From a virus, in IMG/VR virus record IMGVR_UViG_3300025617_001245, positions 1 to 25,207 of that record: DNA of 25,207 bases, one strand, 5' to 3'. A model generated the notes under the pieces. That model had not been told where the DNA came from. It made no database searches and worked only from the letters and a program-made list of their open reading frames with translations. A program made the position numbers and the translations under genes. This document shows positions 7,758-24,579 of the stretch, piece by piece (position 1 is the first letter of the stretch; each line of letters opens with the position of its first letter).

Positions 7758-8035
7758 TACTGACCAACCTCTAGCTTAACCTTAAGCACTGCTGCAAACT
7801 GGCCAATCGCATCTGACACTAAGTATAGATCGTCCATGCCAGATAGCTCAACAGAGAATGCATGTCCAGGCATGATGCGGTATCCGTAGTTAGTGGTGGT
7901 AACATCGGAAGATCCCACATAAATATTAAGGGTCTCGTCGACGTTCTGAATTGTAATATCCATTCCAGAGTGAGTTCCATCTGGAGTAATTTTTGTTGGG
8001 GTGGGCCCAAGCTCATATAGTCTGTGAGTAGTCAT
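7757..8035 (-). CDS. Putative small virion structural protein
   Basis: A 92-aa protein with alternating beta-type sequence (MDITIQNVDETLNIYVGSSDV, YGYRIMPGHAFSVELSG, LYLVSDAIGQFAAVLKV) typical of small head-decoration or tail-attached phage proteins. It starts at an ATG placed exactly 6 nt after TATAAT, so its mRNA should be leaderless. It overlaps the next gene by one base, making a two-gene operon. The exact virion role is not recognised. Confidence 0.6.
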   Translation of the reverse strand: MTTHRLYELGPTPTKITPDGTHSGMDITIQNVDETLNIYVGSSDVTTTNYGYRIMPGHAFSVELSGMDDLYLVSDAIGQFAAVLKVKLEVGQ

Positions 8036-8041
8036 AGTATT

Positions 8042-8050
8042 ATTATACCA
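8042..8050 (-). promoter_or_regulatory. Leaderless extended -10 promoter
   Basis: On the minus strand, TGGTATAAT is followed by 6 nt (AATACT) and the ATG at 8035. Standard -7 to +1 spacing puts transcription start on the A of the ATG. Confidence 0.75.
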
Positions 8051-8152
8051 TTAATTACAAGAATGAATGTCTATTTTAACTCTAAGCTCTACTGCGTTGT
8101 CCCCCTGCATCCGCAGCTCGCATCGAGGACATGTAAAATATAGGGGCAGCAT
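8051..8152 (-). CDS. Micro zinc-finger protein (33 aa), tentative
   Basis: A 33-aa ORF reading YFTCPRCELRMQGDN then VELRVKIDIHSCN: a CPRC knuckle, a beta-type arginine-rich middle and a final His-Ser-Cys, which could make a one-zinc ribbon. TACAAT lies 5 nt upstream of its ATG, so it could be leaderless like its neighbours. It ends just before the promoter of the minus-strand structural pair and fills an otherwise empty 154-nt gap. It is too short for certainty; CxxC at the N-terminus and protein-like composition are the main support. Confidence 0.5.
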   Translation of the reverse strand: MLPLYFTCPRCELRMQGDNAVELRVKIDIHSCN

Positions 8153-8174
8153 ACTCAATTGTAGTTTGTTTTTA

Positions 8175-8183
8175 TGATAAAAT
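8175..8183 (+). promoter_or_regulatory. Leaderless extended -10 promoter of the endolysin gene
   Basis: TGATAAAAT is followed by 6 nt (AGTTAC) and the ATG at 8190, so transcription should begin on the start codon. No good -35 is seen. It faces the minus-strand micro zinc-finger gene. Confidence 0.7.
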
Positions 8184-8189
8184 AGTTAC

Positions 8190-8960
8190 ATGAAACTTAT
8201 TAATCCAGCTCCAGGTCGTAAGGTCACCAGTGCCTACGGTCCAAGGACACATCCAATTACTGGTCAAAAGGGCAAGATGCACCACGGTATTGACTTTGGT
8301 GGAAGCTTTAACGTTCTTGCTGCAGGAGACGGCATTGTAAGCCATGTTGGCTACTCTGCCAAGGGTGGTGGTCATGTTGTTATTATTAAACATGCTACCA
8401 ACCTTTACACCGTCTACTACCACGGCAAGGACGCAACAAAGTTTAAGGTCGGTGATCGCATTAAGGCTGGGGACGTTGTCTACCGAAGCGGATCCACTGG
8501 TGCTAGCACAGGCAACCACCTCCACTTCGAAGTGCGTCGTAGTCGTAAGTGGGGGGATAGTGTCGATCCTAATATTTATATCAACAATGATAAGCCAACC
8601 AAGGGTAGTATAGGTGGCCCAGAGAACACTGCCCGTCATCAATATGGCCTTAAGGTAGACGGCAAGCTGGGTAAGTCTACCTGGAGAGCATGGCAGAATG
8701 CACTTAAAGAAAGCTTTGAGTATCGCGGAATTGTGGACGGTATCCCAGGCAAGATGACCTGGACTGCTATCCAGAAGTCTGGACTTGACTATGGTTATAA
8801 TGCAAAGTTCGTGGATGGAATGCCAGGCCCAAACACTCGCAAGGCCGTACAGAGGCGTCTGAAGGCTACTGGAGACTACAAGGGACGTATCGATGGTGCT
8901 TGGGGGCCGCTTACAATTAGCTCTTTGCAACGGACACTAAACAAAGGAATGTATAAGTAA
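8190..8960 (+). CDS. Endolysin: M23 metallopeptidase with peptidoglycan-binding repeats
   Basis: Lytic enzyme of 256 aa that should cleave peptidoglycan cross-bridges at the end of infection. The N-terminal M23 domain carries the zinc set: HHGID (H31, D35), YYHG (H78) and HLHFEV (H110, H112). From residue 150 come four repeats of the form V/I-D-G-x-x-G-x-x-T...Q centred near D157, D184, D210 and D236, spaced about 26 residues, which resemble peptidoglycan-binding modules of actinobacteriophage lysins. There is no signal peptide, so release needs a holin. It is preceded by a leaderless promoter and coupled by a one-base overlap to the next membrane protein gene. Confidence 0.93.
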   Translation: MKLINPAPGRKVTSAYGPRTHPITGQKGKMHHGIDFGGSFNVLAAGDGIVSHVGYSAKGGGHVVIIKHATNLYTVYYHGKDATKFKVGDRIKAGDVVYRSGSTGASTGNHLHFEVRRSRKWGDSVDPNIYINNDKPTKGSIGGPENTARHQYGLKVDGKLGKSTWRAWQNALKESFEYRGIVDGIPGKMTWTAIQKSGLDYGYNAKFVDGMPGPNTRKAVQRRLKATGDYKGRIDGAWGPLTISSLQRTLNKGMYK

Positions 8961-9298
8961 TGATTAACAATATAATTACTGTATTCGAAAGGCTGCGTAA
9001 AAACCGTAAGCCAAAGCCTGTTACGAACGGGCCCTCCTGGACACATCGTCGTAGATTAATCTATGGTGCATATATCTTGGCAGTATTAATGATTGTCTTT
9101 GGGGCACTCAGCTTGTTTGCAGATAGCCAGATCGGTGTTGAGCTTGTTGTAGGAGGCGTTGCACTTCTATCTATTATTGTGACAGCCTACACAACATCCG
9201 CAACCTACGAAGATGTTCGTATCTGGAAACGATCTGGACCAACAGAGCTCGAAGACCCCTCAGATCAGTTTGACACAGACAACCCAGATGGTGTATAA
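8960..9298 (+). CDS. Two-TM membrane protein, probable holin-like lysis protein
   Basis: A 112-aa protein with a basic N-terminus, two hydrophobic helices (about residues 34-54 and 57-78) and an acidic C-terminal tail ending in many Asp residues. This two-TM layout directly after an endolysin fits a class II holin or a holin partner. The ATG overlaps the endolysin stop by one base. A separate r1t-like holin follows, so this could instead be an anti-holin. The promoter for the next gene lies inside its 3' end. Confidence 0.65.
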   Translation: MINNIITVFERLRKNRKPKPVTNGPSWTHRRRLIYGAYILAVLMIVFGALSLFADSQIGVELVVGGVALLSIIVTAYTTSATYEDVRIWKRSGPTELEDPSDQFDTDNPDGV

Positions 9299-9299
9299 T
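9270..9299 (+). promoter_or_regulatory. Promoter of the r1t-like holin gene
   Basis: A consensus TTGACA (9270-9275), an 18-nt spacer and TATAAT (9294-9299) lie at the end of the upstream gene. The predicted start near 9306 leaves a short leader containing AAAGGA ahead of the ATG at 9328. Confidence 0.75.
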
Positions 9300-9327
9300 A
9301 TATAGGTCTAATGAAAGGACACAACAA

Positions 9328-9576
9328 ATGGTAATGACAGCAGCGTTTTGGAAGATGGCGGGAGAAAGAGCCATCAAGACCGTCGCACAGAGTGCCCTAG
9401 CCTTCCTTGGCTCGGGAACCGTGGGACTGTTTGAGATTAACTGGGGTAACATGTCCAGTGTTGCACTGGGTGCAGGTCTCCTCTCAATCTTGACATCTAT
9501 TGCTATCCCTAGTGCAGAAACAAGGAACGCAGTTCGTAATGAGCTAGCGGGCAAGGCTCAGGCAAGGAATAAGTAA
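9328..9576 (+). CDS. r1t-type holin
   Basis: An 82-aa membrane protein that should form the lysis pore or time lysis. It reads FWKMAGERAIKTVAQSALAF, then a loop ending in NWG, then a second hydrophobic segment (VALGAGLLSILTSIAI) and a charged tail. This order matches the phage r1t holin family common in actinobacteriophages. ATGs at 9328 and 9334 are both possible; AAAGGA upstream favours the first. It has its own strong promoter and is coupled to the FmdB-like gene by a one-base overlap. Confidence 0.88.
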   Translation: MVMTAAFWKMAGERAIKTVAQSALAFLGSGTVGLFEINWGNMSSVALGAGLLSILTSIAIPSAETRNAVRNELAGKAQARNK

Positions 9577-9761
9577 TGGCAATCTACCAGTATAAATGTA
9601 CTGGTTGCGACACCATGATTGATAAGATCAGGGGCATCAACGATAAAGAAGATGCCTCTGATCTTGTTTGTGATAGGTGTAATGGCAACCTGAAAAGATT
9701 CTATGCGGGAGGTGCTTTTGGGGTACAGTTCAACGGAAGCGGATGGGCCAGTAAGTCTTAG
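9576..9761 (+). CDS. FmdB-like zinc-ribbon protein
   Basis: A 61-aa protein with the FmdB-family layout: MAIYQYKCTGCD, then VCDRCNGNLKRFY, giving zinc ligands C8, C11, C32 and C35, and a short glycine-rich tail (FNGSGWASKS) typical of the family. FmdB-like ribbons are common small phage proteins of uncertain, possibly regulatory, function. It overlaps the preceding holin stop by one base and the following monooxygenase by up to 59 bases. Confidence 0.85.
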   Translation: MAIYQYKCTGCDTMIDKIRGINDKEDASDLVCDRCNGNLKRFYAGGAFGVQFNGSGWASKS

Positions 9762-10530
9762 GTTCCACTGGTTTGCAAATAGGCAATACTCAGACGTCAC
9801 AGTGTCAGAGTTTAGGAAGATGATTTCTACCCTAGACTCTTTTGGCTATTACTCTGTTTTGCTGCCGTACCACAATCACTTGTCAGATTTCTTGGTGCTA
9901 TCAGCTAAGGATATTTCTAGCACAGAGAGAATAAAATATAATATAGCTATTAGGCCATCTGAAATGTCGGCAGAGGCCTGTGCTAGACAGGTCCACTCTT
10001 TTAATAAAATTGAAGCTAATAGATTAATTTTAAATATAATTTATGGAAGTCCGCAACAAATTGAAAATAGGGGAGATCTTGTGGAAAACAGAGTCGGTCT
10101 CAAGCAGTCCGCCGATATGTTTGTTGAGCAACTCTCCTGCAATAATCTATTTATTAAATCTAACACAGAAATAATTGTTTCGGGTAACTCCTACGAAGCC
10201 CTGGAGATGTCTAGACGACGAGCCGACTACTCGGCCCTAGACCTGGAGAGCTTTGAAAGAGAAGACATGGATAGTGAGGAGGGCAAGGCCCGCTTGGCTG
10301 CCTATGCAAAGGTTAAAAGACTCATGCTAGTGGCAGATATAGTTGTGACTGATAGCAAAGAAAGAAAACTGTTTGACGGCAGCAACTCCATCGTCGGTAC
10401 CGAAAAAGAAATTGTAGCCAAGCTAACGTCACTACAGAAGAGGGGCGTAACAGACATCCTAGTCTCTTCCCACCCCTATGATCGGCACATCGAATCGCTG
10501 CATCAATTAATAAAACGTATCTCAAGCTAG
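9703..10530 (+). CDS. Compact luciferase-like / SsuD-type flavin-dependent monooxygenase
   Basis: Resembles alkanesulfonate monooxygenase-type luciferase-like enzymes, which use reduced FMN and O2. Matching segments in order are FHWFANRQYSD, the GYYSVLLPYHNH block, RIKYNIAIRPSEMS, ANRLILNIIYGSP and, at the C-terminus, IVGTEKEIVAKLTSLQKRGV then DILVSSHPY. At up to 275 aa it is shorter than SsuD (about 380); the middle, after IIVSGNSYEALEMSRRRADY, appears shortened. The start is uncertain: ATG 9703 or TTG 9718 (5 nt after GGGAGG), both inside the FmdB-like gene. The substrate is unknown. Loss of part of the barrel could mean altered chemistry. Confidence 0.72.
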   Translation: MREVLLGYSSTEADGPVSLRFHWFANRQYSDVTVSEFRKMISTLDSFGYYSVLLPYHNHLSDFLVLSAKDISSTERIKYNIAIRPSEMSAEACARQVHSFNKIEANRLILNIIYGSPQQIENRGDLVENRVGLKQSADMFVEQLSCNNLFIKSNTEIIVSGNSYEALEMSRRRADYSALDLESFEREDMDSEEGKARLAAYAKVKRLMLVADIVVTDSKERKLFDGSNSIVGTEKEIVAKLTSLQKRGVTDILVSSHPYDRHIESLHQLIKRISS

Positions 10531-10550
10531 ACTTTTTGCACTAAATAAGA

Positions 10551-10556
10551 TATAAT
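10551..10556 (+). promoter_or_regulatory. -10 promoter element (TATAAT) upstream of the DUF7455-like gene
   Basis: A perfect TATAAT in the 57-nt gap, with predicted start near 10563 and a leader containing TTGGAGG before the ATG at 10588. No clear -35 is visible. Confidence 0.55.
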
Positions 10557-10587
10557 AGATAGAACAACAACTACTTTTGGAGGCTAT

Positions 10588-10821
10588 ATGACTGCATCAA
10601 CACTTGATAAACCAAGGCTAGACCCAAAAACTACCAAGCTTACCCGATCTGACAGATGCGATTCAGGATGCCCAGCCCAAGCTCATGTGCTTGTATTCGG
10701 CTTAGAGGGAGAGTTAATGTTTTGTGCACACCATTATAATAAAATTATGAGCAGCGACTCAGGCAGGGAAGCGATGGAAGCATTTGCTATCGAAACACAC
10801 AAACAAGATGAGGCGGCATAG
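10588..10821 (+). CDS. DUF7455-like small zinc protein
   Basis: A 77-aa protein whose core, LTRSDRCDSGCPAQAHV then GELMFCAHHYNK, matches the actinobacterial DUF7455 pattern (T..DRCD.C.AQA...G.L.FCAHH). Likely zinc ligands are C24, C28, C46 and H48 or H49. The first spacing is CxxxC instead of the usual CxxC, a small oddity. Function is unknown in hosts and phages alike. It has its own promoter, a good RBS, and a one-base TAGTG overlap with the next gene. Confidence 0.75.
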   Translation: MTASTLDKPRLDPKTTKLTRSDRCDSGCPAQAHVLVFGLEGELMFCAHHYNKIMSSDSGREAMEAFAIETHKQDEAA

Positions 10822-11240
10822 TGGAAATAGTTTTAGGGGCAGTGCTGGGCACGGCTATTGTAGTAGTCAGCACCCTATTTTTGCGTACTCCAGCCAAGGA
10901 AGCAATGAGCACCACATTAAAGTTTAGTCAAGCTCGGGCACACATGCTGATGTCCACTATCGCAGACTACGGAGATAGCGTTCACGAACCAGACACAAAC
11001 AATCAAAGCAAGGACTATATTAAAAAATCATATGTGAGGGTAGTCATAGCAGAAAACAATGCCTACTGGATTAAAGATAATGCTTTGTTCACAGCAGAGG
11101 TGGTCGAGGGAATGGTGGACAGGGAGAGCCAGAGAAGAGTTGACACAATGGGTATGGATAGTGTAGAATTAGAGCAGACGTTAGCAATTGTAGAAAAACT
11201 TAGAGAGGGACTAGATGAAGATAGCGGTGCAGGGAAGTAA
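10821..11240 (+). CDS. Membrane-anchored phage protein of unknown function
   Basis: A 139-aa protein starting with GTG that overlaps the previous stop by one base. Residues 2-22 (EIVLGAVLGTAIVVVSTLFL) form a single N-terminal TM anchor. The soluble part contains AYWIKDNALFTAEVVEGMVD and VDTMGMDSVELEQTLAIVEK segments, a pattern I have seen as a conserved hypothetical in actinobacteriophages. No catalytic motif is visible. Its 3' end overlaps the next gene by 26 bases. Confidence 0.75.
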   Translation: MEIVLGAVLGTAIVVVSTLFLRTPAKEAMSTTLKFSQARAHMLMSTIADYGDSVHEPDTNNQSKDYIKKSYVRVVIAENNAYWIKDNALFTAEVVEGMVDRESQRRVDTMGMDSVELEQTLAIVEKLREGLDEDSGAGK

Positions 11241-11568: not shown

Positions 11569-11574
11569 AATTAG

Positions 11575-11651
11575 TGTCTCTTAAACTATACATTACGATA
11601 GTTAATGTTCGTTTTAAGGGACATAATGTAGTCAGCAAAAGTTGCTGACTA
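11575..11651 (+). other. Structured intergenic element with two strong hairpins
   Basis: The 105-nt gap between the SLOG-like and next gene contains TGTCTCTTAAA (11575-11585) pairing with TTTAAGGGACA (11613-11623) with one G-U, an inner AACTAT/ATAGTT hairpin (11584-11589 with 11598-11603) that competes with it, and then a perfect 10-bp stem TAGTCAGCAA/TTGCTGACTA with a 3-nt loop (11629-11651). No U-tract follows. It could be a terminator, attenuator or small RNA. Confidence 0.5.
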
Positions 11652-11673
11652 GTATAAACAGGGAATGATTATA

Positions 11674-11883: not shown

Positions 11884-11886
11884 GTT

Positions 11887-14215: not shown

Positions 14216-14620
14216 ATGATGTCTATTACAGACCCATTCGAAACAATCAATCGGGAATTCGATCGAATGTTTCCAGTTGTAGCAAGAACACACAAGCCAG
14301 TAGGCTACCCACCGTATAACCTGATCCAGTGGAATACGGAGCGATTCAGTCTTGAATTCGCAGTCGCTGGCTTTAGCAAAGATCAAATTGATATCTCAGT
14401 GGAGAAGGGTGTGCTGTCCGTGACTGGAGAGCAGACTGAAGAGGCAGCAGATATTAACTATCTACACAAGGGAATCGCAGCTCGAAAGTTTGTTCGTAAG
14501 TTTGAGCTACCCGAGCACGTAGAAATCTCCGAGGCAAAGCTAGAGAACGGCATCTTGATTATTGATTTAATTAAGGAAGTTCCAGAAGAGGCCAAGCCAA
14601 AGAAGATCAGCATCAAATAA
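14216..14620 (+). CDS. Hsp20-family small heat-shock protein
   Basis: A 134-aa alpha-crystallin-domain chaperone. An N-terminal arm (ITDPFETINREFDRMFPVV) precedes the domain: PPYNLIQWNTERFSLEFAVA, GFSKDQIDISVEKGVLSVTG, FVRKFELPEHVEISEAKLEN and GILIIDL. Such proteins bind unfolding proteins without ATP; phage versions are known, especially in cyanophages, and may aid virion assembly. ATG 14216 has AGGAGG 7 nt upstream; an adjacent ATG at 14219 is also possible. A separate promoter and 5' hairpin suggest independent regulation. It is followed by a stem-loop at 14644-14668. Confidence 0.93.
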   Translation: MMSITDPFETINREFDRMFPVVARTHKPVGYPPYNLIQWNTERFSLEFAVAGFSKDQIDISVEKGVLSVTGEQTEEAADINYLHKGIAARKFVRKFELPEHVEISEAKLENGILIIDLIKEVPEEAKPKKISIK

Positions 14621-15272: not shown

Positions 15273-15929
15273 ATGGACGAAATACTACAAGAAGAAATGT
15301 CTCGGGTATATCGGCAAAACCTTTGGGGCAGCAAAGAGTCCCGCTCAGGCCGAGGATCGTCCCCCATTCAGACAATGTATCTTGAGCATGAGGTGCCAAT
15401 GCTGTTTGACCGAATGGAAATAGATTCTTTGTTAGATATTCCTTGCGGAGACTTCAGGTGGATGAGCAAGGTTCTTGAAAGGTCTAGCCGTAAAATAAAT
15501 TACCACGGCGCGGATATCGTTGAAAACATTATTAAAACTAATAAGCAGAAAGAAACAGATAGCATACATTTTTCATGCCTAGACATAACGACAGACCCTC
15601 TACCTAAGGTAGACTTAGTTTTTTCCAGAGATTGTTTTGTTCATCTATCAGACAGCATGATTCTTAAAGCATTTAAGAATATTAAAGATAGCGGATCGGC
15701 TTATATTGCAATGACTAACTTTTCATGGTTTCACTTGCCGAATAAAGCTTTGGAGAATGAGGACATTGTTGGCGGGAACTGGAGAAAAATCAATTTCAGG
15801 ATGAGGCCATTTTATATGCCCAGCCCTATTGATTTTATCAGCGAGGGCAGCACTGAAGAGCTAGGTAAAGATAAAACTATTGGGGTCTGGAGGGTTTCAG
15901 ATCTCCCAGACTGCTTGACTTTGGAGTAG
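15273..15929 (+). CDS. Class I SAM-dependent methyltransferase
   Basis: A 218-aa Rossmann-type methyltransferase. Motif I is LLDIPCGDFRWM, then YHGADIV (motif II acid), LDITTDPLPKVDLVFSRDCF (motif IV region) and VHLSDSMILKAFKNIKDSGS. The upstream NLWGSKESRSGRGSSPIQT segment is typical of a bacterial and phage subfamily with DxPCGDFxWM whose substrate is unknown. ATG 15273 is chosen because GGAG lies about 5 nt before it; GTG 15246 would add nine residues. The final WRPLN-like GNWRKINFRMRPF segment fits the same subfamily. It sits next to the oxygenase/glycosyltransferase cluster and could modify a glycan or protein. Confidence 0.85.
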   Translation: MDEILQEEMSRVYRQNLWGSKESRSGRGSSPIQTMYLEHEVPMLFDRMEIDSLLDIPCGDFRWMSKVLERSSRKINYHGADIVENIIKTNKQKETDSIHFSCLDITTDPLPKVDLVFSRDCFVHLSDSMILKAFKNIKDSGSAYIAMTNFSWFHLPNKALENEDIVGGNWRKINFRMRPFYMPSPIDFISEGSTEELGKDKTIGVWRVSDLPDCLTLE

Positions 15930-15934
15930 TTTCT

Positions 15935-15943
15935 TGGTAAAAT
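15935..15943 (+). promoter_or_regulatory. Leaderless extended -10 promoter of the metalloprotease gene
   Basis: TGGTAAAAT, 6 nt (AGTAGC), then the ATG at 15950. The predicted +1 is the start codon itself. Confidence 0.75.
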
Positions 15944-15949
15944 AGTAGC

Positions 15950-17320
15950 ATGAAGAGACAGATTGCATCAATAGCCCTTGTTCCGTTTATCCTTTCAGGA
16001 TGTGGTGTTTCGCTAGAGACAGTAAACACTTCCCAGCCAAAAGCTGAGGTGTTGCAGACTACGCAACAGCCTGTGGTTTTGTGGGATCAAACCCAATCTC
16101 CCCAGCCTGCGGAGTTTTGTAAGGTTCCAGATCAAAGACCGATAGAGTACCTAGGCCAGGCAAGGGGCCACACCATTGACGGTGTTACCTGGGGAGGACC
16201 TTCTGGATTCCCACTTGTTGAGCAAACGGTCCCCACCCAAGGAGAGCTGGATTGGCTTATCGTAATGGTTGCATTTAAAGATACTCCAAAGTATGTAGAT
16301 GAGCCATCAGAATTCTTGGACCCACAGATTGAAAAGCTAGAGGCCTGGGCCGAATTCTGGTCCCAGGGTAAGCTAAGTTTTAATGTTACTTACGTTAACT
16401 ATTGGATTGATCTACCAGTCAATGCCATTGACAGGCCTAAGAAGGATGGGGACCTCGCGAACATGATTGTCCAGGGAATGCCAGATGGAATGCACCCAGA
16501 CCACTACGATGCTACCTTTGTTCAGTGGGCAAACCTTGCTGAGGCCCCAGGTCTCGCAGAGCTGAACGGAACAAACAATATTAGATTTACTTTGCGTATG
16601 GGAAGCAATGAAAACACCTATGAGAGCCTTAATGAGGTTCCTAAGCTATTCTGGGCACCAGGATATTACCACTCAAGCGATGAGAGGCAGGCACTGACTC
16701 TGAAGAGAGAGTTTACGTACGGACATTGGCTACATGAGATTTTACATGAGATGGGGCTTAACCTGCATGCTCCTGGTAATGGCTGGGCCACTGGAGTTGG
16801 ACAGGCCTTGTACCCGAATAACCAAGGTTGGTCAGCTGCGATTAATTCATGGGAATCATTCCAGCTTGGTTGGCTAGATGACTCTCAGGTTCACTGTGTG
16901 GATAGGGAGTCTCTGGAGTCTACTAAAACTATCTTAACCCCAACAGACACTTATGGCGGAGAGAGAAAGATGATTGTAGTACCTACGAACAATGACAGCA
17001 ACGAAATCTTGGTTATTGAGGCACGACAAAAGGGTGAGTGGACAGACTGGGCAGATGTTTCAGAAGGGTTGCTTGCATATAGAGTAGACCCGACCGCCGC
17101 TCACAGGGACCATGTAGATAATGATTGTGGCAATGATCCAGCTATCAAGAAGTGGGCCTACTACATTTATCCAGACGGCACTGTAAGCCCAGAACCAAAC
17201 TGCGGGTACTTTGACCTGGCCCTGATTAGGGTGGGGGAGACCGTTACTTTTGACGGCATGACAGTCAAGCTAGACGCAACAGAAGAGGGGCTGTACTATG
17301 TTAGTATTAAAACTAATTAG
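15950..17320 (+). CDS. Secreted lipoprotein metalloprotease (M6-like, metzincin motif)
   Basis: A 456-aa predicted exported zinc protease. Residues 1-18 form a lipoprotein signal peptide (KRQ, hydrophobic core, lipobox ILSGC with Cys18). The zinc motif HEILHEMGLNLH at 262-273 fits HExxHxxGxxH, giving ligands H262, H266 and H273 and catalytic E263. Following features (WESFQLGWLDDSQV, EILVIEARQKGEW, EGLLAYRVDP) resemble M6/immune-inhibitor-A-like peptidases found in bacteria. It would sit on the outer face of the host membrane or be released. A leaderless promoter precedes it. Its stop overlaps that of the convergent oxygenase gene by 4 nt (TTAG). It is unusual for a phage; the substrate is unknown. 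Confidence 0.88.
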   Translation: MKRQIASIALVPFILSGCGVSLETVNTSQPKAEVLQTTQQPVVLWDQTQSPQPAEFCKVPDQRPIEYLGQARGHTIDGVTWGGPSGFPLVEQTVPTQGELDWLIVMVAFKDTPKYVDEPSEFLDPQIEKLEAWAEFWSQGKLSFNVTYVNYWIDLPVNAIDRPKKDGDLANMIVQGMPDGMHPDHYDATFVQWANLAEAPGLAELNGTNNIRFTLRMGSNENTYESLNEVPKLFWAPGYYHSSDERQALTLKREFTYGHWLHEILHEMGLNLHAPGNGWATGVGQALYPNNQGWSAAINSWESFQLGWLDDSQVHCVDRESLESTKTILTPTDTYGGERKMIVVPTNNDSNEILVIEARQKGEWTDWADVSEGLLAYRVDPTAAHRDHVDNDCGNDPAIKKWAYYIYPDGTVSPEPNCGYFDLALIRVGETVTFDGMTVKLDATEEGLYYVSIKTN

Positions 17321-17877
17321 TACTCGTAAGTAAACTCATCATCTGTCTGATCTTTTTGTGTAATAAAAGATCCAGCAGATATTCTGAGACCAGATTCAAT
17401 CTCTCTCACGCCGTGACTGTATTCCCTGGAGCCAGGGTGCATAATGAGGTCGCCAGCTTCTGGGACATATTCAACATCCTGGTTTGGATACCAAAGCTCC
17501 CCGCCCTCAAAGTCATCATTAATGTAATATACACAACCATACATGACTGGTGCAGAGTGGTCTCCGCCAAGGTTGTCATAGTGGGGCAGCATCCTTTGTC
17601 CAGGCTCCCAGTATACGTAGTTGTGGAGGGTGCTAAACTTGGGCTCAACTGCAAAGTCTAGAAGCTCTGTGGCTGTCTTGCGATACTTTTTATCAAGGCG
17701 GATCATTATAGAGTTAAACTCTTCTCTTAGATCGTTTCTTTTTAGGGTGTCGTCTTTTTCTTTAGCAGCATAGTACATCGAAGATAGGTAGTCGCAAACT
17801 AGCTTTGCCTCTTCTTTTGTGGAAAACTCTTTTAATAAAATAATATCTGTTCCTGGGAACGGCTCTGTAATTCTCAT
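17317..17877 (-). CDS. 2OG-Fe(II) oxygenase, prolyl-4-hydroxylase-like, ligands intact
   Basis: A 186-aa double-stranded beta-helix oxygenase that would hydroxylate a protein or other substrate using 2-oxoglutarate and O2. The iron triad is complete: H99 and D101 in MLPHYDNLGG and H155 in YSHGVREIESGLR, with R165 to bind 2-oxoglutarate; GCVYYINDDFEGGELWYP is the family core. The start at 17877 is chosen because TATAAT ends exactly 6 nt upstream; the longer frame to 17898 would run through that promoter. It is one of four related genes in the window. Confidence 0.9.
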   Translation of the reverse strand: MRITEPFPGTDIILLKEFSTKEEAKLVCDYLSSMYYAAKEKDDTLKRNDLREEFNSIMIRLDKKYRKTATELLDFAVEPKFSTLHNYVYWEPGQRMLPHYDNLGGDHSAPVMYGCVYYINDDFEGGELWYPNQDVEYVPEAGDLIMHPGSREYSHGVREIESGLRISAGSFITQKDQTDDEFTYEY

Positions 17878-17883
17878 GGTATT

Positions 17884-17889
17884 ATTATA
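17884..17889 (-). promoter_or_regulatory. Leaderless -10 promoter
   Basis: Minus-strand TATAAT followed by 6 nt (AATACC) and the ATG at 17877. It lies in the 25-nt gap after the upstream gene. Confidence 0.7.
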
Positions 17890-17902
17890 CACCATCAATC
17901 AA

Positions 17903-18265
17903 TTATGTGATGTAGAATCCGTTGCAGTTTCTTAAAAATTTTACCAAAGCTGGCATCTCAAATTGCAAGCCAGCTACAAAGGCTCTGTCTCCAACGCCAG
18001 ACTGCACAGAGACCTCCGTACCATGGCTTATTTCCGCATTAGTTGCGAATCTTTCAGTGCCCAGATTCTCTATCCTTTTGGCAATTGTCTCCGCCAGCTC
18101 CTTGCTCACCGCTTCCCCACGGTTACTAAACCAGTTTTCAACTTCTAATGCTTCAGGTATTTCTCGTTGTATCTCTCTCCAGAGTAAGTGCCAAGCCCAA
18201 ACATTAAACCGAATCCATTCTCCATCATAATTGTTTGGCTTTATGCCCTTCAGATCAAATGCCAT
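17903..18265 (-). CDS. Protein of unknown function (120 aa)
   Basis: No known family is assigned. The N-terminal half, YDGEWIRFNVWAWHLLWREI, is tryptophan-rich and recalls uncharacterised actinobacterial proteins with an F-R-N-xx-W-x-W pattern; the middle is helical (EAVSKELAETIAKRIENLGT). AAAGGA lies 7 nt before the ATG. It overlaps the end of the upstream glycosyltransferase gene by 11 bases, so the two are co-transcribed. Confidence 0.72.
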   Translation of the reverse strand: MAFDLKGIKPNNYDGEWIRFNVWAWHLLWREIQREIPEALEVENWFSNRGEAVSKELAETIAKRIENLGTERFATNAEISHGTEVSVQSGVGDRAFVAGLQFEMPALVKFLRNCNGFYIT

Positions 18266-19103
18266 TGTCTTGTCCTTTAGAAACTATTTTAATGTTACCG
18301 CTTTTTAGGGGGATATCTTTGTAAAGATCGGCCAATGCTACCAGGATGTTCTGACTGGGGGGCGTGGTATCAGGCATATCTTTTAATATGATGCTTCCGA
18401 TGTGAGTCACAAAGCTTCTTTCTTTGTTTATTTTTATTTTATTTGCATCTTGCCATATCCACTGCCAGCCCACCATTGGGTATCCAGTATTGGTTAACCA
18501 CGTCTCAAAAGTTTGACCACTCTCCTCAAAGTCTGGGAATGAAGAAACTATTTGATCTGCTAACCCTTCAACAGAAACAATGTAAGCTATCCACATACCA
18601 TCCCGCATCTCCTGGTCGTGTCTATTTAAACTAAGTAAAGTTTGTTTAGCCAAAACGAGCATGTTATCAATAATGCGTTTCAAGAATGGAGATTCTTTTT
18701 CTGAAGCTATTAGGTGGTTGTGGCATCTAAACCCCGAATGCCTTTCGTTTTTTAAATCACCATTGGTGAAGCAAAACCCCCAATGCATGTCAGGACTGCG
18801 AATTACGTAGGTGTCCAGGTCAAGGTTGGGCCTGGTATCTAAGTCAATGTACAGGCCACCTAGACGATAAAGAATAATAAGCCTGGCAAGATCTGCCCTG
18901 TAGGTCATGAGATCTATCTTAGAGTATACTTCCCAGGCATCTGAAGAGTACCCTTTTACGTGCTCCTCTACCTCAGAGTCCCGTAACAGTAGATGTTCCC
19001 AATGTGGGTATGCCTCTTGCCAGCCCCTGGCTAAGTGCTTAAAGTAGTCCAGCTCATCAGACTCGGGGCCAACATATATCTGTACAATCCGTTTAGGGAT
19101 CAA
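18255..19103 (-). CDS. GT32-type glycosyltransferase (DXD sugar-binding)
   Basis: A 282-aa transferase of the Gly_transf_sug/OCH1-like type. It opens IPKRIVQIYVG, continues with the KIDLMTYRADLARLIILYRL helix and the metal/nucleotide-sugar motif GGLYIDLDTRP (D87, D89). There is no TM anchor. It should move a sugar from a nucleotide donor to an unknown acceptor. It starts at a TTG (19103) with AAGGAG 6-7 nt upstream. It lies between two oxygenase-like genes on the same strand, with only an 18-nt gap from the upstream one. Confidence 0.88.
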   Translation of the reverse strand: MIPKRIVQIYVGPESDELDYFKHLARGWQEAYPHWEHLLLRDSEVEEHVKGYSSDAWEVYSKIDLMTYRADLARLIILYRLGGLYIDLDTRPNLDLDTYVIRSPDMHWGFCFTNGDLKNERHSGFRCHNHLIASEKESPFLKRIIDNMLVLAKQTLLSLNRHDQEMRDGMWIAYIVSVEGLADQIVSSFPDFEESGQTFETWLTNTGYPMVGWQWIWQDANKIKINKERSFVTHIGSIILKDMPDTTPPSQNILVALADLYKDIPLKSGNIKIVSKGQDNGI

Positions 19104-19121
19104 GTCTCTCTCCTTGCTGCT

Positions 19122-19625
19122 TTATTTTTCCAGAAAGCCCATCATGGTTAGAATTACCTGAGTGCCACCACTGACCTTAGAAAGACCATTGCCGAATGGC
19201 TCACCGCCTGGGTGAATAACCAAATCTCCAGCCTTGGGGCTATAGGTGTAGTCAATTTCAGGGAAGTAGTAGTTTCCTCCAGAAAAGTTATCGTTAATAA
19301 ACAACATAGTCATCGCATTGACCTGCTCATTGGTAACTGATTTCAAGACACCGTTCCACTGTACAGCCATCTCAAAGCCCTCTTCGCAAATCATAATGTC
19401 TGCTTGCTTACTCCATCGGGCGTCTCCCAGGTTGGGGTACACTTCCTTCACAACGCTTTTGATCTTGTCCTGCAGATTTTTAATAAGATCATCTGTTTTT
19501 TGTTTGTTAAAGACTGGATCTTTTAGTCCAGTAAAAATTTTGCGGAGGAAGTTCAGATCCTCATCGCTGATAATGTCTGAAACCACATATAGTGGTTGTT
19601 CTGGGTTAGGCTGTGTAATATTCAT
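19122..19625 (-). CDS. P4H-like 2OG-oxygenase fold protein lacking iron and 2OG ligands
   Basis: A 167-aa protein with the P4H-like core (MTMLFINDNFSGGNYYFPEI, SPKAGDLVIHPGG), so the fold is clear. Aligning with the intact paralogue at 17317-17877, the HxD pair becomes W90-N-G92, the distal His becomes N146 (FGNG for YSHG) and the 2OG Arg becomes Q156. All four key residues are lost, which argues against oxygenase activity. The reading frame and RBS-free leaderless promoter (TGATAGAAT, 6 nt, ATG) are intact, so it is not a decaying pseudogene. A binding or regulatory role is inferred. Confidence 0.8.
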   Translation of the reverse strand: MNITQPNPEQPLYVVSDIISDEDLNFLRKIFTGLKDPVFNKQKTDDLIKNLQDKIKSVVKEVYPNLGDARWSKQADIMICEEGFEMAVQWNGVLKSVTNEQVNAMTMLFINDNFSGGNYYFPEIDYTYSPKAGDLVIHPGGEPFGNGLSKVSGGTQVILTMMGFLEK

Positions 19626-19631
19626 ACGTAT

Positions 19632-19659
19632 ATTCTATCACTATTTTATGTGGTATAAT
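19632..19659. promoter_or_regulatory. Back-to-back divergent leaderless promoters in a 40-nt gap
   Basis: Minus strand: TGATAGAAT with its -10 at 19632-19637, 6 nt, ATG 19625. Plus strand: TGGTATAAT with its -10 at 19654-19659, 6 nt (AAGGTC), ATG 19666. Both extended -10 boxes, and nothing else, fill the whole gap. Confidence 0.75.
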
Positions 19660-19665
19660 AAGGTC

Positions 19666-20913
19666 ATGCCATATTCAGTTGGAGAAAAGGGATCTTACGG
19701 TTGCTCAGGCTACCCTGTCGTAAAGGACGGAACTAGCGAGGTAATGGGATGCCATGATACAGCAGGGGCTGCACAAAGACAGATTGCCGCTATTAATATG
19801 AGCGAAGCCGAGAAGGGTAAAAAGAAAATGACATCAGCAATGGGTCAGCCAGAGCCAGCAAGCTATGGAAAATCACACTTTAACTGGAGCACACCAGTTC
19901 GTAAACCAGAACGATCAAGTTTTAGCATCGGTAAAGCCGATGCACCAGCAGGAGCCGAGATTAAAGAGGGCGACTACGTAATGGGAGAAACCATGGAGGG
20001 CACCGTACACGGTCGTGTGGAGCACATCATGTGGGAGGGCGGAGTGCTTGGCTCGCCAGAAGGAGAGTATTCGCTTCAGTCTATGCCTCCAGAGAATCCA
20101 GCAATGTCCGTCCGTATCTTTGATGAGATTCCTGGCGGGTGGGAAGAGACAGCATACAGCATCGGAATGATGTATAAAGATGCCAAGAAAATTGATATCA
20201 GTAATCACAACATGTCTGAAGACAAGAGCTATGACGACATGTACAAGGCAGAGGGCTATGCTCCCACAAGCGGCATGAAAGCTGCTGCTCGTCGTGCCAT
20301 CAAATGGAAAGAAGATGGCAAGGCCAAGGGTGCTGGCACCGCAGTTGGCTGGGGTAGAGCAAGAGACATCGTAGCAGGTAGATCAATGTCTCTTAGTGTA
20401 GTTAAGCGTATGTACTCTTTCTTTTCTCGTCATGAGGTAGACAAGAAGGGCAAGGGCTTCTCCTCTGGTCCAGACTTTCCATCCAAGGGTCGTGTTATGT
20501 GGGACGCATGGGGCGGAGATGCAGGGTTCTCCTGGTCTCGTAAAATTGCCGAGCGCGAGAGCAAAAAGGCAGATAGTCTGTTTGACTGGGGAAATGTGAA
20601 TGATCTTAGGGCAGCCAAGCAAGCCCGTACTGATGCATGGTTTGCCATGCGTGAAGAGCAGTCAGAGATTGATTTAGTAGAAAAAGCGGATAGTGTTCGT
20701 GTGGGTCAGATGGTGTCCTGGAATTCTTCTGGGGGTACGGCAAGAGGTAAGGTTAAAAGAATTATTACTAGCGGATCATACAAGGTTCCAGACACAGATG
20801 TAACCGTAACGGGTACCAAGGAAGACCCTGCAGCAGTCATTACTTTATACAGAGACGGAGAGGCTACGGATACAGTCGTAGCTCATAAGGTTAAGACGCT
20901 AAGAGCCTCTTAG
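19666..20913 (+). CDS. Mosaic phage protein with C-terminal HVA1/TUDOR-like domain
   Basis: A 415-aa modular protein. Residues 1-45 (PYSVGEKGSYGCSGYPVVKD, MGCHDTAGAAQRQIAAI) resemble short cassettes found on phage head proteins. About 90-165 is a beta domain (IKEGDYVMGETMEGTVHGRV). About 190-310 carries the conserved phage domain with GTAVGWGRARDIVAGRSMSL and VMWDAWGGDAGFSW. The last 70 residues (VRVGQMVSWNSSGGTARGKV) resemble the HVA1/TUDOR (DUF2945) fold. The function of the middle domain is unknown to me; it may be a head- or DNA-associated protein. ATG 19666 is chosen over upstream in-frame codons because it sits 6 nt after TGGTATAAT. Confidence 0.8.
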   Translation: MPYSVGEKGSYGCSGYPVVKDGTSEVMGCHDTAGAAQRQIAAINMSEAEKGKKKMTSAMGQPEPASYGKSHFNWSTPVRKPERSSFSIGKADAPAGAEIKEGDYVMGETMEGTVHGRVEHIMWEGGVLGSPEGEYSLQSMPPENPAMSVRIFDEIPGGWEETAYSIGMMYKDAKKIDISNHNMSEDKSYDDMYKAEGYAPTSGMKAAARRAIKWKEDGKAKGAGTAVGWGRARDIVAGRSMSLSVVKRMYSFFSRHEVDKKGKGFSSGPDFPSKGRVMWDAWGGDAGFSWSRKIAERESKKADSLFDWGNVNDLRAAKQARTDAWFAMREEQSEIDLVEKADSVRVGQMVSWNSSGGTARGKVKRIITSGSYKVPDTDVTVTGTKEDPAAVITLYRDGEATDTVVAHKVKTLRAS

Positions 20914-21749
20914 GCAGTACCCTTTTTGCCAGTACCACCGTATCCACCAGACAGGAAGTGGTCTAAGGCTGGGTCTCCAGTAGACCTTTGTTGATTTCCT
21001 TTGTAATCTCCAGAGCCTAGCTCATAGCCAGACTTTTCCTGGACGTACCCCATCTCTTGTCCGTCTGTCGGGTTGAGCATGTTTGTCTTATCAAAACGAT
21101 TTTCCATGTCAGCAACATGAGAAATAAAGGATGTGAGAACATAACGCTGTCCCTCGCCAGTAACCTCAGTTACGCCGTGCAAACGACTTGCCCTAAACAG
21201 CATCATCGATCCAGCTGGGGGCTTGATCTGAGTGGTTAGGTCGTCATCCTTAAAGTAAAGATGTCCACCCTCATAGCTATCGTTAATGTAAATAACTGTA
21301 GCGAACTCTAGGCTAGGGTTGCAGTCCGTGTCTCTGTGGTCCTCAAGGCCAACTCCTTTGTAGTGACGTTGCATCACTCCATAGCGAGTAGACGGGTAGC
21401 CTGGAGGAAGAATGGCATTAACCCTATTGGTTACAGCAGTTACCTCATCGTTTAGCTGGGGCTCAGTAGAACGAACCTGGCTCATGTTCCTGGGGATAAT
21501 CATTAGCTTTCCCTCTTCAACCAGGGTAGCAATGTCTTTGCGACCATACAAGTCTTGTGCCTTTTCTTCAAGCTCTTTGAGGTAAAAGAAATACCATTGC
21601 GGCGGAAGGGTACCATTGGCAAGATCTTGGAATGCAGTAAGCTCTTCTGGTGTTAGGATGTTGTGCACCAAAAATGCATCATCAGCCAGCTGCTCATATG
21701 TGTAGCCCTGCTCGTCAAGATTTGCTTTAATTTTTTCTTTGAGTTCCAT
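20910..21749 (-). CDS. 2OG-Fe(II) oxygenase, prolyl-4-hydroxylase-like, ligands intact
   Basis: The largest of the four oxygenase-like proteins (279 aa). Ligands are complete: H138 and D140 in LEDHRDTDCN, H191 in RLHGVTEV and R202 in GQRYVLTSFI, within the core VIYINDSYEGGHLYF. An N-terminal helical extension of about 100 residues and a glycine-rich C-terminal tail (YELGSGDYKGNQQ, LSGGYGGTGKKG) are extra to the basic fold. ATG 21749 is preferred; a TTG at 21770 would be nearly at the transcription start. Its stop overlaps the convergent gene's stop by 4 nt. Confidence 0.88.
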   Translation of the reverse strand: MELKEKIKANLDEQGYTYEQLADDAFLVHNILTPEELTAFQDLANGTLPPQWYFFYLKELEEKAQDLYGRKDIATLVEEGKLMIIPRNMSQVRSTEPQLNDEVTAVTNRVNAILPPGYPSTRYGVMQRHYKGVGLEDHRDTDCNPSLEFATVIYINDSYEGGHLYFKDDDLTTQIKPPAGSMMLFRASRLHGVTEVTGEGQRYVLTSFISHVADMENRFDKTNMLNPTDGQEMGYVQEKSGYELGSGDYKGNQQRSTGDPALDHFLSGGYGGTGKKGTA

Positions 21750-21781
21750 GTGTGTCGGAGTCCCTTTCAAATAGTAATACC

Positions 21782-21787
21782 ATTATA
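21782..21787 (-). promoter_or_regulatory. -10 element overlapping an upstream stop codon
   Basis: Minus-strand TATAAT at 21787-21782 contains the TAA stop of the 54-aa gene upstream. Start is predicted near 21775, leaving a 26-nt leader with GAAAGGGA before the ATG at 21749. Confidence 0.5.
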
Positions 21788-21947
21788 CATCATTTTTCTT
21801 TTCACAATGCTCTATATATAGTGCCTTAAGTTGATCAGCGTACTTCTCATAATCTATTTCAATAATCATATCTTTGCCGATGGTGTGTATTTTAATCTCT
21901 TTTCCAATGTTAAAGAGTATTTCTTTTATTTCTTTGTCTAGGTCCAT
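21783..21947 (-). CDS. Small protein of unknown function (54 aa)
   Basis: A 54-aa, lysine-rich, mostly helical ORF (DLDKEIKEILFNIGKEIKIH, IIEIDYEKYADQLKALYIEH). It starts exactly 6 nt after TATAAT, the same leaderless design as its neighbours, and fills the gap between the oxygenase and the tandem glycosyltransferase. No family is recognised. Confidence 0.62.
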   Translation of the reverse strand: MDLDKEIKEILFNIGKEIKIHTIGKDMIIEIDYEKYADQLKALYIEHCEKKNDV

Positions 21948-21953
21948 ACCTAC

Positions 21954-21978
21954 ATTATACCTTAATGAATGCTATAAT
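21954..21978. promoter_or_regulatory. Divergent leaderless promoters in a 39-nt gap
   Basis: Minus strand: TATAAT at 21959-21954, 6 nt (GTAGGT), ATG 21947. Plus strand: TATAAT at 21973-21978, or an overlapping TAATAT exactly 6 nt from the ATG at 21987. It is a second case of two start sites packed into about 40 nt. Confidence 0.65.
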
Positions 21979-21986
21979 ATATACAA

Positions 21987-23534
21987 ATGGACGCAAATAC
22001 AATTCTTACTGTTATGCCCATCTACAATGCTGAGAAAACCCTAAAGGCAGCGGTAGATAGCATTCTTGCACAAACTTATACTAACATACATTTAGTGTTA
22101 GTGGATGACTTCTCTACAGACAGATCTCTTGAGATTGCATTGTCTTATCAACAAGACAAAAGGGTAACAATTATTCGTAACAAGGAAAATCTTGGTGCCT
22201 ACTACTGTCGCAACATAGGCCTATACAAGTTTCGTAATCAGCCATGGGGATTTTTTACTACCCATGACGCAGATGACGTGTCCAGGCTTGATCGATTCGT
22301 CCTGATGCACAAGCACTTTAGAAATACTAGAACGGTTGCCGTGCAAGATACTTGGGAGAGACGGAGGCTTAGCACGAAAGAAAGTATCTCGGTTAGCCTT
22401 ACGTGTGCCCATGCCATGTTTAAAAGAAAAGTCTTTGAGGATCTGGGCTACTTCGAAATGATGAGATTCGGTGCCGACTGGGAGCATTGGGCCAGGGTAA
22501 ATCAGTACAATGACATGAATAAAACTACTTCTAGAAGCTTAAAGGAAGTCACTGGCAACTCTTATGTTGCCAAGACCAATCTGACAGAGCAGATACCTGC
22601 AGGCTCTGGCCCAAGAGAAGTTTACATAGCTAAAAAGCAGGCCGAGCACGCTAAAGCAAAGCTAAATAATAAAACCATTTATCGTAACTTCAGCCCAAAG
22701 TCAAGGGCCCAGGACGTTGAGGGTTACAAGTTGCCATCGAAACCAATAAAGGGTGCAGAACTTGGCAACTCGGATGCAGCACCTAAATATAACAATGTTC
22801 GAATTACCGTAGTGCTTCTGACCTGGCAACGGCTAGGGCTACTTGCAAAGACGTTGGAGTCTTTATCTAAACAAACCTTTCAAAATTTTGAGGTATACGT
22901 TAGCAATGCCAACACCTCACATGAGGACGTAGTCGAAAAGACTACAAAAAAATACTCCGACAGGCTAAAGATAAGGGTTGGGCACGATGGCAATGAACTG
23001 TTCGCCTTTAGAAGAATGACAGTGGGCAAGAGGCTAGCCGAAGAGGGCACAGATATAATACTATTTATAGATGATGATATTACTTTTGATGAAAAGTACG
23101 TAGAAATCATGTTGCGGCACTACGAGCCTAAAGCTTATAAGTCAGGATTTGCCTGGAGTTTTCAGAACAATGGCTCCGACTATTACGGCAAAAGAACCAG
23201 GGTATTTGACCAGTCGTCTGTAATTCATTATTGTGGCACAGGTATTAGTATCATAGATGCCAGCATATTTTTAGATAAAAAGCTTATCAGCCTCGCACCA
23301 CCAAGTGCAATCAAGATAGAAGATCTCTGGCTTTCGTATTATGCCCAGCACGTTAAGCGGTGGAAGCTGGGGTATGTTCCCGTAGAAAACGTGGTTATCG
23401 GTGGCTCAGACTCCGTTGCCCTTTACAAGAGCATTCTAAATGACAAGAAAAAAGCTGGCAGTAATGTTGTGGATAAGGCAGACTTCTTGAGGCAGTTGAC
23501 TAAAGAGTATGGATGGAAGTTACCAACTAAATAA
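21987..23534 (+). CDS. Tandem GT2-family glycosyltransferase (two catalytic domains)
   Basis: A 515-aa protein with two GT-A domains. Domain 1 (about 5-215) has VMPIYNAEKTLKAAVDSILA, VDDFSTD (D40-D41) and the DXD-type HDADD (D94-D97). A linker of about 55 residues follows. Domain 2 (about 271-515) has VVLLTWQRLGLLAKTLESLS and FIDDD (D362-D364), with IKIEDLW as a possible catalytic acid region. The acceptor is unknown; two domains suggest addition of two sugars or chain extension. It has a near-leaderless promoter. Its 3' end overlaps the convergent HNH gene by 8 nt. Confidence 0.9.
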   Translation: MDANTILTVMPIYNAEKTLKAAVDSILAQTYTNIHLVLVDDFSTDRSLEIALSYQQDKRVTIIRNKENLGAYYCRNIGLYKFRNQPWGFFTTHDADDVSRLDRFVLMHKHFRNTRTVAVQDTWERRRLSTKESISVSLTCAHAMFKRKVFEDLGYFEMMRFGADWEHWARVNQYNDMNKTTSRSLKEVTGNSYVAKTNLTEQIPAGSGPREVYIAKKQAEHAKAKLNNKTIYRNFSPKSRAQDVEGYKLPSKPIKGAELGNSDAAPKYNNVRITVVLLTWQRLGLLAKTLESLSKQTFQNFEVYVSNANTSHEDVVEKTTKKYSDRLKIRVGHDGNELFAFRRMTVGKRLAEEGTDIILFIDDDITFDEKYVEIMLRHYEPKAYKSGFAWSFQNNGSDYYGKRTRVFDQSSVIHYCGTGISIIDASIFLDKKLISLAPPSAIKIEDLWLSYYAQHVKRWKLGYVPVENVVIGGSDSVALYKSILNDKKKAGSNVVDKADFLRQLTKEYGWKLPTK

Positions 23535-23820
23535 AGGCCTTGTTCTGGCGTTCCCAGGTACGATATCTGTGACAGTTGGCACAAACAACCTCACACTTGG
23601 AAATCTCTTGTTTAATAGTTTTAATACTTACAGCAGAGTTCGCGTACCTGGCTAGATTGTGTTTCTTTTTGCCATCAACATGGTCAAAGTCCATTTGGCT
23701 ATAGTGATAGGATTGCTTACAATCGGCACACACAGACTTCTCTTTGACGGATCGTATATAATCTTTGTTTCGATCTCTGGCCTCCCTTTTGCGGGCAGCT
23801 TCGGTAGAAGTCTTGGACAA
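23527..23820 (-). CDS. HNH endonuclease
   Basis: A 97-aa nuclease with a basic N-terminus, zinc pairs C31xxC34 and C80xxC83, and the HNH core DFDHVDGKKKHN (H47) then VVCANCHRYRTWE (H84). A size near 100 aa and its solitary position fit a free-standing phage HNH enzyme, possibly homing. TTG at 23820 with AGGAG about 9 nt upstream is the start. It follows a small zinc-ribbon gene on the same strand. Confidence 0.87.
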   Translation of the reverse strand: MSKTSTEAARKREARDRNKDYIRSVKEKSVCADCKQSYHYSQMDFDHVDGKKKHNLARYANSAVSIKTIKQEISKCEVVCANCHRYRTWERQNKAFI

Positions 23821-23845
23821 TATTCAGCTCTCCTTATGTCTAGTG

Positions 23846-23986
23846 CTACTCGTCTTCATAATCTACAAATGATTTACTAAATCCACAGTGAGCACACATT
23901 TCATATATGTGTGTGTAAATAGGGTCCTCTTTGTCATCTATTACCATGAACTCTAAGTCAGAGCCACAGTCTGGGCAGCGGATCAA
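23846..23986 (-). CDS. Small zinc-ribbon protein (46 aa)
   Basis: A short ORF reading MIRCPDCGSDLEFMVIDDKE then YEMCAHCGFSKSFVDYEDE: two CxxC knuckles (CPDC, CAHC) about 30 residues apart, a classic zinc ribbon. The likely start is TTG 23986, with AGGA 8 nt upstream inside the end of the PTS IIB-like gene. It is co-transcribed with that gene and the HNH gene. Its partner is unknown; it could bind nucleic acid. Confidence 0.7.
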   Translation of the reverse strand: MIRCPDCGSDLEFMVIDDKEDPIYTHIYEMCAHCGFSKSFVDYEDE

Positions 23987-23991
23987 CGGGT

Positions 23992-24264
23992 TTATCCTAC
24001 TAGGAAATCTTTAAACAACTCTTTTGCAAAAGAGTTAAAGTCCTCGATTGTTTTGACAGGCTTCTTGTGTTCCCCTAGAGCCTTGACGACAAATGGCTTA
24101 AGCTCATCAAACGTTAGCACTACATCATGGTCTGCAAAGTGTTGGGGCGAATCCGCAAGTGAGCATGCCATGTATTGGTTGTCTGGAATCATCTTTTCAA
24201 GCCTAGTCTTGAGCATGGCAGAAGATCCAACACCACTGTTACAAATAATTAAAACTTTTAACAT
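23992..24264 (-). CDS. PTS IIB-like (mannitol-type) phosphotransfer domain protein
   Basis: A 90-aa stand-alone protein resembling the IIB domain of mannitol-class sugar phosphotransferase systems. It reads KVLIICNSGVGSSAMLKTRL, with Cys8 in the phosphate loop CNSGVGSSAM, then DVVLTFDELKPFVVKAL and a C-terminal helix. In hosts IIB receives phosphate from IIA and gives it to sugar at IIC; neither is present here. Two ATGs occur (24267, 24264); AAGGAG is better spaced from 24264. An extended -10, TGCTATAAT, lies upstream. It could intercept host phosphotransfer. Lone domains of this type are rare in phages to my knowledge. Confidence 0.75.
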   Translation of the reverse strand: MLKVLIICNSGVGSSAMLKTRLEKMIPDNQYMACSLADSPQHFADHDVVLTFDELKPFVVKALGEHKKPVKTIEDFNSFAKELFKDFLVG

Positions 24265-24289
24265 CATTCTCCTTGTGTGTTATGGAACT

Positions 24290-24345
24290 ATTATAGCACC
24301 TTATGTCATGAACATGTTGACAGTATCGCCAACTTAGTATATAAT
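24290..24345. promoter_or_regulatory. Divergent promoters between the PTS IIB-like and helical-protein genes
   Basis: Minus strand: TGCTATAAT with -10 at 24295-24290 and a leader carrying AAGGAG. Plus strand: perfect TTGACA (24317-24322), 17 nt, TATAAT (24340-24345), 6 nt, ATG 24352, giving a leaderless transcript. The palindrome AACATGTT (24311-24318) lies between and touches the -35. Confidence 0.75.
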
Positions 24346-24351
24346 TGTAAC

Positions 24352-24579
24352 ATGAGTGAAGACAACGATCCAAACCCATATGGGTTTTTAAAAAGCTTGC
24401 CCGAGGGCTTAGGCTGGATTAGTAGGCTGGAGAATGAGCTAATACAGCTACTTGATGATGTCATTAAACACAAGGATGTGTTGTCGGAGATAAGTCTCAA
24501 TGCTCTGTATTACACTATAGCAAAGACAGAAGAGGCAATACAGCGTCTAGAAATAGAAATAAAGATGTTTGAGGAGTAA
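24352..24579 (+). CDS. Small helical protein of unknown function (75 aa)
   Basis: A 75-aa acidic protein, mostly one long predicted helix (ISRLENELIQLLDDVIKHKD, YTIAKTEEAIQRLEIEIKMF), likely a short coiled coil. ATG 24352 is chosen because TATAAT ends 6 nt before it; the earlier in-frame ATG at 24277 would read through the promoter. It runs into the next gene, whose TTG start lies 2 nt after the stop, so the two form an operon under the strongest consensus promoter in the window. Confidence 0.75.
   Translation: MSEDNDPNPYGFLKSLPEGLGWISRLENELIQLLDDVIKHKDVLSEISLNALYYTIAKTEEAIQRLEIEIKMFEE

Follow-up and report, generated by a model that had tools for sequence, protein, structure and literature searches.

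The window analysed here, a 25 kb piece of viral sequence (the whole stretch of 25,207 nucleotides (nt), positions 1 to 25,207 of IMG/VR record IMGVR_UViG_3300025617_001245), contains eight genes in which a TATAAT-like hexamer ends exactly 6 nt before the ATG start codon and no usable Shine-Dalgarno motif is present. We are highly confident that these hexamers belong to promoters of host type producing leaderless messenger RNAs (mRNAs) at genes that open a transcription unit, and that they reflect a habit of the host and not a phage regulon. Such sites would be ordinary promoters of the kind served by the host's housekeeping sigma factor, with an extended -10 and an optional -35 element, placed so that transcription would begin on the A of ATG; actinobacterial ribosomes would translate the leaderless mRNA from its 5'-terminal AUG. 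They would serve genes that head a transcription unit of their own, many of these units standing back to back, the downstream genes of a unit being read from Shine-Dalgarno motifs or through overlapping stop and start codons, and the phage would be following its host lineage's own strategy. Leaderless transcription itself is very likely, because the spacing is exact, the sites resemble promoters, Shine-Dalgarno motifs are lost and the boxes are conserved amid drifting flanks.

Naming genes by the position of the start codon, with (-) for the complementary strand, the box that leaves six nt (N6) to the ATG is TATAAT at 8035(-), 17877(-), 19666, 21947(-) and 24352, TAAAAT at 8190 and 15950, and TAGAAT at 19625(-). 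Gene 8035(-) (7757–8035; 92 amino acids, function unknown) is preceded by TGG-TATAAT (8042–8047), and gene 8190, encoding an M23 peptidase or endolysin (8190–8960), by TGA-TAAAAT (8178–8183). Gene 15950 (15950–17320), for a secreted or lipoprotein-like product of 456 amino acids, has the promoter TTGACT-N17-TAAAAT (15915–15943) with TGG abutting the -10, a promoter that aligns in relative L010. The boxes at 17884–17889 and 19632–19637 (the latter TGA-TAGAAT) serve, on the minus strand, a 2OG-Fe(II) oxygenase (17317–17877) and a second 2OG-oxygenase-like gene (19122–19625), which stands back to back with 19666, their starts 40 base pairs (bp) apart. Gene 19666 (19666–20913; 415 amino acids, a match to phrog_2859 of unknown function, with a C-terminal Hva1_TUDOR domain) follows TGG-TATAAT (19654–19659). 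The 54-amino-acid gene 21947(-) (21783–21947) has its box at 21954–21959, and the 75-amino-acid gene 24352 (24352–24579) lies below a consensus promoter, TTGACA-N17-TATAAT (24317–24345). All eight genes are predicted to be leaderless. The preliminary description had listed these boxes, often with TGn in front and without a ribosome-binding site, and each of these statements was borne out: a strict TGn is found at five of the eight (8035, 8190, 15950, 19625 and 19666), a -35 element at N17 at two (24352 and 15950), and the AAGG before 19666 stands only 2 nt from its ATG. For a ninth site, 21987, the proposed TAATAT-N6 fit is present, but the better box is TGC-TATAAT (21973–21978), ending 8 nt before the ATG; the predicted leader is about 2 nt, making this tandem glycosyltransferase gene (21987–23534) near-leaderless. 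Longer in-frame starts exist for 17877 (at 17895) and 19666 (at 19648), and in both cases orthologues favour the starts used here.

Genes were called with a simple script blind to upstream signals; per-gene spacing counts also took in-frame ATGs up to 45 nt downstream of a called start, alike at every spacing. The 19666 protein, used as query, found 80 related viral loci; 14 contigs from these, together with the window, form a set of 15 genomes and 1462 called genes, the relatives being fragments, held as linear records and read in pieces. A nucleotide search of phage records gave matches in RNR and tRNA only. Against 100 dinucleotide shuffles of the whole window, the loose pattern in which the rule had been proposed was only mildly enriched (TANNNT-N6-ATG, 30 occurrences vs 16.8, or 1.8-fold), whereas strict boxes were strongly so: TATAAT-N6-ATG occurred 6 times vs 0.35, and TA[TAG]AAT-N6-ATG 10 times vs 1.05, counts that none of the 100 shuffles reached. 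Neighbouring spacings (k) in the window gave little signal, k=2 and k=11 having lesser excesses. By gene, TANAAT stands at spacing 6 in 8 of the 39 window genes, and 13 times in total over the 30 other spacings between 0 and 30, about 0.4 each. The same peak emerges across the 1462 genes, where 64 have TATAAT and 96 have TANAAT at spacing 6; TANAAT was found in 16 genes at spacing 5, 23 at 7, 12 at 8, 34 at 9, and 3–8 at each spacing from 0–4 and 10–14. Counted by family, there are 59 at spacing 6 and 2–8 at 0–4 and 10–14, and every phage contig has between one and thirteen TATAAT-N6-ATG sites. Phages of Vibrio, Limnohabitans and Bacillus, comparable in AT content, gave no spacing-6 peak, and weak ones were found in a mycobacteriophage (4 vs 0.6) and a Rhodococcus phage (7 vs 2.7).

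Aligned on the ATG, the 96 spacing-6 genes show T at -17 and -1 and a purine at -13; T at -15 and G at -14 are present in 67% and 78% respectively, and matches of at least 4/6 to TTGACA fall at exactly -35 in 21 of the 96, compared with 1–8 at the neighbouring offsets tabulated. TGn, the -10 (-12 to -7), the -35 and T(-1) lie where a +1 on the A of ATG would place them. As in promoters of a primary sigma factor, the -35 and the (extended) -10 lie at canonical distance from the predicted +1. The claim that the -10 geometry would put +1 on the ATG is supported: the arrangement is that of leaderless promoters and greatly exceeds chance expectation in both the window and the related contigs. Only 3 of the 96 genes have a Shine-Dalgarno motif, vs 730 of the 1366 others (p=8e-26). 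The distance from an extended -10 to the ATG is bimodal, with 97 at 6–9 nt, 3 at 10–14 and 127 at 15 or more; Shine-Dalgarno motifs are few at 6–9 nt, present in 82% of the 77 genes at 15–30 nt, and mostly present up to 60 nt. One type of promoter thus appears to serve both the leaderless and the Shine-Dalgarno modes. A further group at spacing 9 has TATAAT-N6 followed by a leader of 3 nt, mostly ACT or ATT, and then ATG (for example, among relatives G001–G013, at 53130–53534 of G001); the expected +1 is a purine in 32 of 34, and the group spans 19 families at the TANAAT level.

Leaderless starts are distributed by gene order. They account for 22% of genes that have an opposite-strand neighbour upstream, 7.5–13% of those following a same-strand neighbour after a gap, and 1.1% of those overlapping one; as with the cellular genes called TA-led, they are used at proximal genes, the distal ones having Shine-Dalgarno motifs or being coupled. 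Homologues of 19666 are present in all 14 relatives. Over the 80 loci, those whose first residues could be placed mostly have TGn-TATAAT, or something close to it, exactly 6 nt upstream of ATGCCATA or ATGCCTTA, with differing flanks; in others the gene overlaps the upstream stop codon and lacks a box, or follows a leader and an AGGAGG motif. In nine of ten distinct upstream regions of 8035 orthologues TANNNT lies at exactly N6; the tenth has its TATAAT at N9 instead. The N6 box of 8190 is kept in L010 and is TATAAT in L008; in L009, L012, L101 and L126 the gene has motifs of the AAGGAG or GGAGG type and a TTG start, this form being that of relatives in which the gene is embedded. The same gene is leaderless or Shine-Dalgarno-led in different phages, depending on context. 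In L010, the nearest among the relatives that have several of these genes, identity to the window is 92% in the -10 boxes, 43% in the upstream DNA and 72% in the first codons. The window's Hsp20 gene (14216–14620, plus strand) offers a contrast, having an AAGGAGG Shine-Dalgarno motif and homologues in the relatives without the N6 box, which orthologues of Hsp20 and WhiB almost never carry.

The WhiB gene points to an actinobacterial host, as far as gene content can predict one, and the phage is taken to be of a freshwater type. A 16S pattern, which we take to be that of an acI probe, returned Planktophila-type genomes, and a 400 kb sample of Planktophila versatilis (368 genes) was examined as a host candidate. 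It follows the same rule, with TANNNT at spacing 6 in 66 of the 368 genes (18%), against 30 genes at spacing 7, 15 at 8 and about 4 at other spacings, and leaderless genes stand back to back in 18 of 58 divergent pairs (spacings 6–9). Six Nanopelagicales-type genomes contained no TGn-TATAAT-N6-ATG. When TATAAT-N6-ATG was counted across the phylum, certain genomes clearly exceeded the reversed-pattern control and others showed no excess; the count was not used to assign a host.

Several observations weigh against a shared host habit, and some would suit the expression class, dedicated and mostly of accessory genes, that the preliminary description had suggested: a co-regulated set of N6 genes, used for example late or once Shine-Dalgarno initiation has been switched off. 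Leaderless starts make up a larger share of genes in the window than in its relatives (8/39 vs 88/1423, p=0.003), and still do so among genes with an opposite-strand neighbour (6/8 vs 18/100), such that position explains only part of the excess; this excess is post hoc, because the window was chosen for its leaderless feature, and is partly owed to its many divergent cassettes. Five of the eight sites fall in the cassette-rich stretch at 15–22 kb. The phage boxes are much nearer consensus than those of Planktophila, which are degenerate TANNNT (TAGACT, TAAGAT), TATAAT being absent at spacing 6 in the 400 kb sample; this may mean that the genus is wrong and the host another actinobacterium, or that phage promoters are simply stronger. 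Moreover, the link to a host comes down to the WhiB gene and the relatives, and the 5' ends of the phage transcripts are predicted from sequence. We nevertheless consider a dedicated class distinctly unlikely. Judged by how many other genomes have a homologue, leaderless genes across the 15 genomes are no more accessory than other genes (p=0.23); where the upstream neighbour lies on the opposite strand, they occur in more genomes than the others do (median 5 vs 1, p=0.0045). Genes 19666, 8190 and 8035 are leaderless yet widely shared. On this homologue count an accessory-gene class was rejected. The -10 element also serves Shine-Dalgarno promoters, orthologues change mode with context, and the Planktophila candidate obeys the spacing-6 rule. 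A phage sigma factor driving the class was likewise discarded as a candidate, since PF04542/PF04545 was not found in the 15 phage records; these are linear, perhaps not complete, and were not searched for phage RNA polymerase.

Alternatively, transcription might start a few bases upstream or downstream of the ATG and give very short leaders, read in some unknown manner independent of Shine-Dalgarno motifs. The secondary peak at spacing 9, where the predicted +1 is nearly always a purine (32 of 34) and the leader 3 nt long, as in ACU-AUG, would suit this, as would 21987 at spacing 8; however, spacing 6 dominates (96 vs 23, 12 and 34 at 7, 8 and 9), T(-1) followed by A(+1) agrees with a start on the ATG itself, and leaders of up to 5 nt are still classed as leaderless (PMC3898074), so that we think it very unlikely as a general account. 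That AT-rich upstream DNA merely happens to meet an ATG is scarcely credible, the 1.8-fold excess of the loose pattern notwithstanding, and was rejected on the shuffles, the sharp single-spacing peak over 1462 genes, the TGn and -35 elements, Shine-Dalgarno loss, conservation against drifting flanks and the peakless phages of non-actinobacterial hosts at similar AT content. Host-type promoters at unit-opening genes hence remain the reading we prefer.

Other features of the window concern its setting. Its genes include RNR, a KatG-like peroxidase, ThyX, WhiB, Hsp20, the M23 endolysin, glycosyltransferases and 2OG oxygenases. Two back-to-back pairs, 19625–19666 and 21947–21987, have (near-)leaderless promoters and start codons 39–40 bp apart, which implies that the promoters of each pair overlap one another; it seems unlikely that two polymerases could occupy one pair at once. 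Similar pairs occur in G005, G012, G013 and Planktophila. Gene 24582 begins 2 nt after gene 24352–24579 and has a Shine-Dalgarno-like motif, GAGGAG. The region 17317–25127 gathers 2OG-oxygenase-like genes (17877, 19625, and possibly 21749 and 24582) with glycosyltransferases, perhaps for modification of the virion or DNA. At 2606–3412 lies a phage papain-family (C1) peptidase with a GTG start and a Shine-Dalgarno-like motif, the homologue of which in G012 (L105) has a TATAAT-N6-ATG start. The KatG-like catalase-peroxidase at 3693–6110 (PF00141) is phage-borne; phage-collection matches spanning most of the protein are only about 44% identical, and G012 (L105) has a 63% homologue. No relative of it was found in genome_contigs, and so KatG gave no clue to the host.

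These results add uncultured actinophages to the known range of actinobacterial leaderless expression, and supply a means of placing start codons and promoters in such phages from sequence alone. Phage orthologues that switch between leaderless, Shine-Dalgarno and coupled initiation are natural experiments in how gene order sets initiation mode. The peak is missing from the three phages of non-actinobacterial hosts, a small sample that points to its possible use as a signal of host phylum in viral contigs. Less expected are the near-consensus TGn-TATAAT boxes and the spacing-9 group with its 3-nt leader. It is conceivable, if rather improbable, that these phages carry leaderless promoters of a strength class avoided by the host chromosome, plus an exact 3-nt-leader mode; were this true, phage promoters could out-compete those of the host for RNA polymerase, and translation would be possible while Shine-Dalgarno initiation is limited.

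A search of the available literature, judged on the titles and abstracts listed, found no paper on leaderless transcripts in mycobacteriophages or Nanopelagicales. In cellular genomes, Zheng et al. (2011) showed that TANNNT about 12 bp upstream marks leaderless genes, that leaderlessness is confined to the first gene of a unit, later genes mostly depending on Shine-Dalgarno motifs, and that actinobacterial orthologues change initiation mode between genomes (PMC3160421). Cortes et al. (2013) mapped transcription starts in M. tuberculosis, counting leaders of -5 to +5 nt as leaderless, and placed the start on the start codon in 26% of genes with a primary start site (PMC3898074). Leaderless mRNAs are indeed frequent in Actinobacteria, as had been asserted, at about 20% of genes in the first study and, among M. 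tuberculosis genes with a primary start site, 26% in the second. Since the TANNNT rule was published in 2011 and matched by start mapping in M. tuberculosis, the present finding is a new instance of it in uncultured actinophages. The phage genes resemble TA-led genes in that the first T of TANNNT lies about 12 nt upstream, and in lacking Shine-Dalgarno motifs, in proximal use and in orthologue switching; they differ in belonging to uncultured phages, in boxes nearer TATAAT and in a strong TGn extension (PMC3160421). The M. tuberculosis leaderless transcriptome likewise has a TANNNT -10, but there the starts were mapped and here they are predicted, and TGn accompanies 7% of its boxes, compared with G(-14) in 78% and T(-15) in 67% of the phage sites (PMC3898074). 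A -10 box adjoining the open reading frame is also reported to drive leaderless expression in Deinococcus-Thermus, there in another phylum and in cellular genes (PMC12340547). Among phages, LanE43AprE7 and F5 of Planktophila, whose hosts are freshwater actinobacteria of low GC content, encode a sigma-70 factor, none being found in the 15 records searched here, and share WhiB and glycosyltransferases with the window (PMC10202952).

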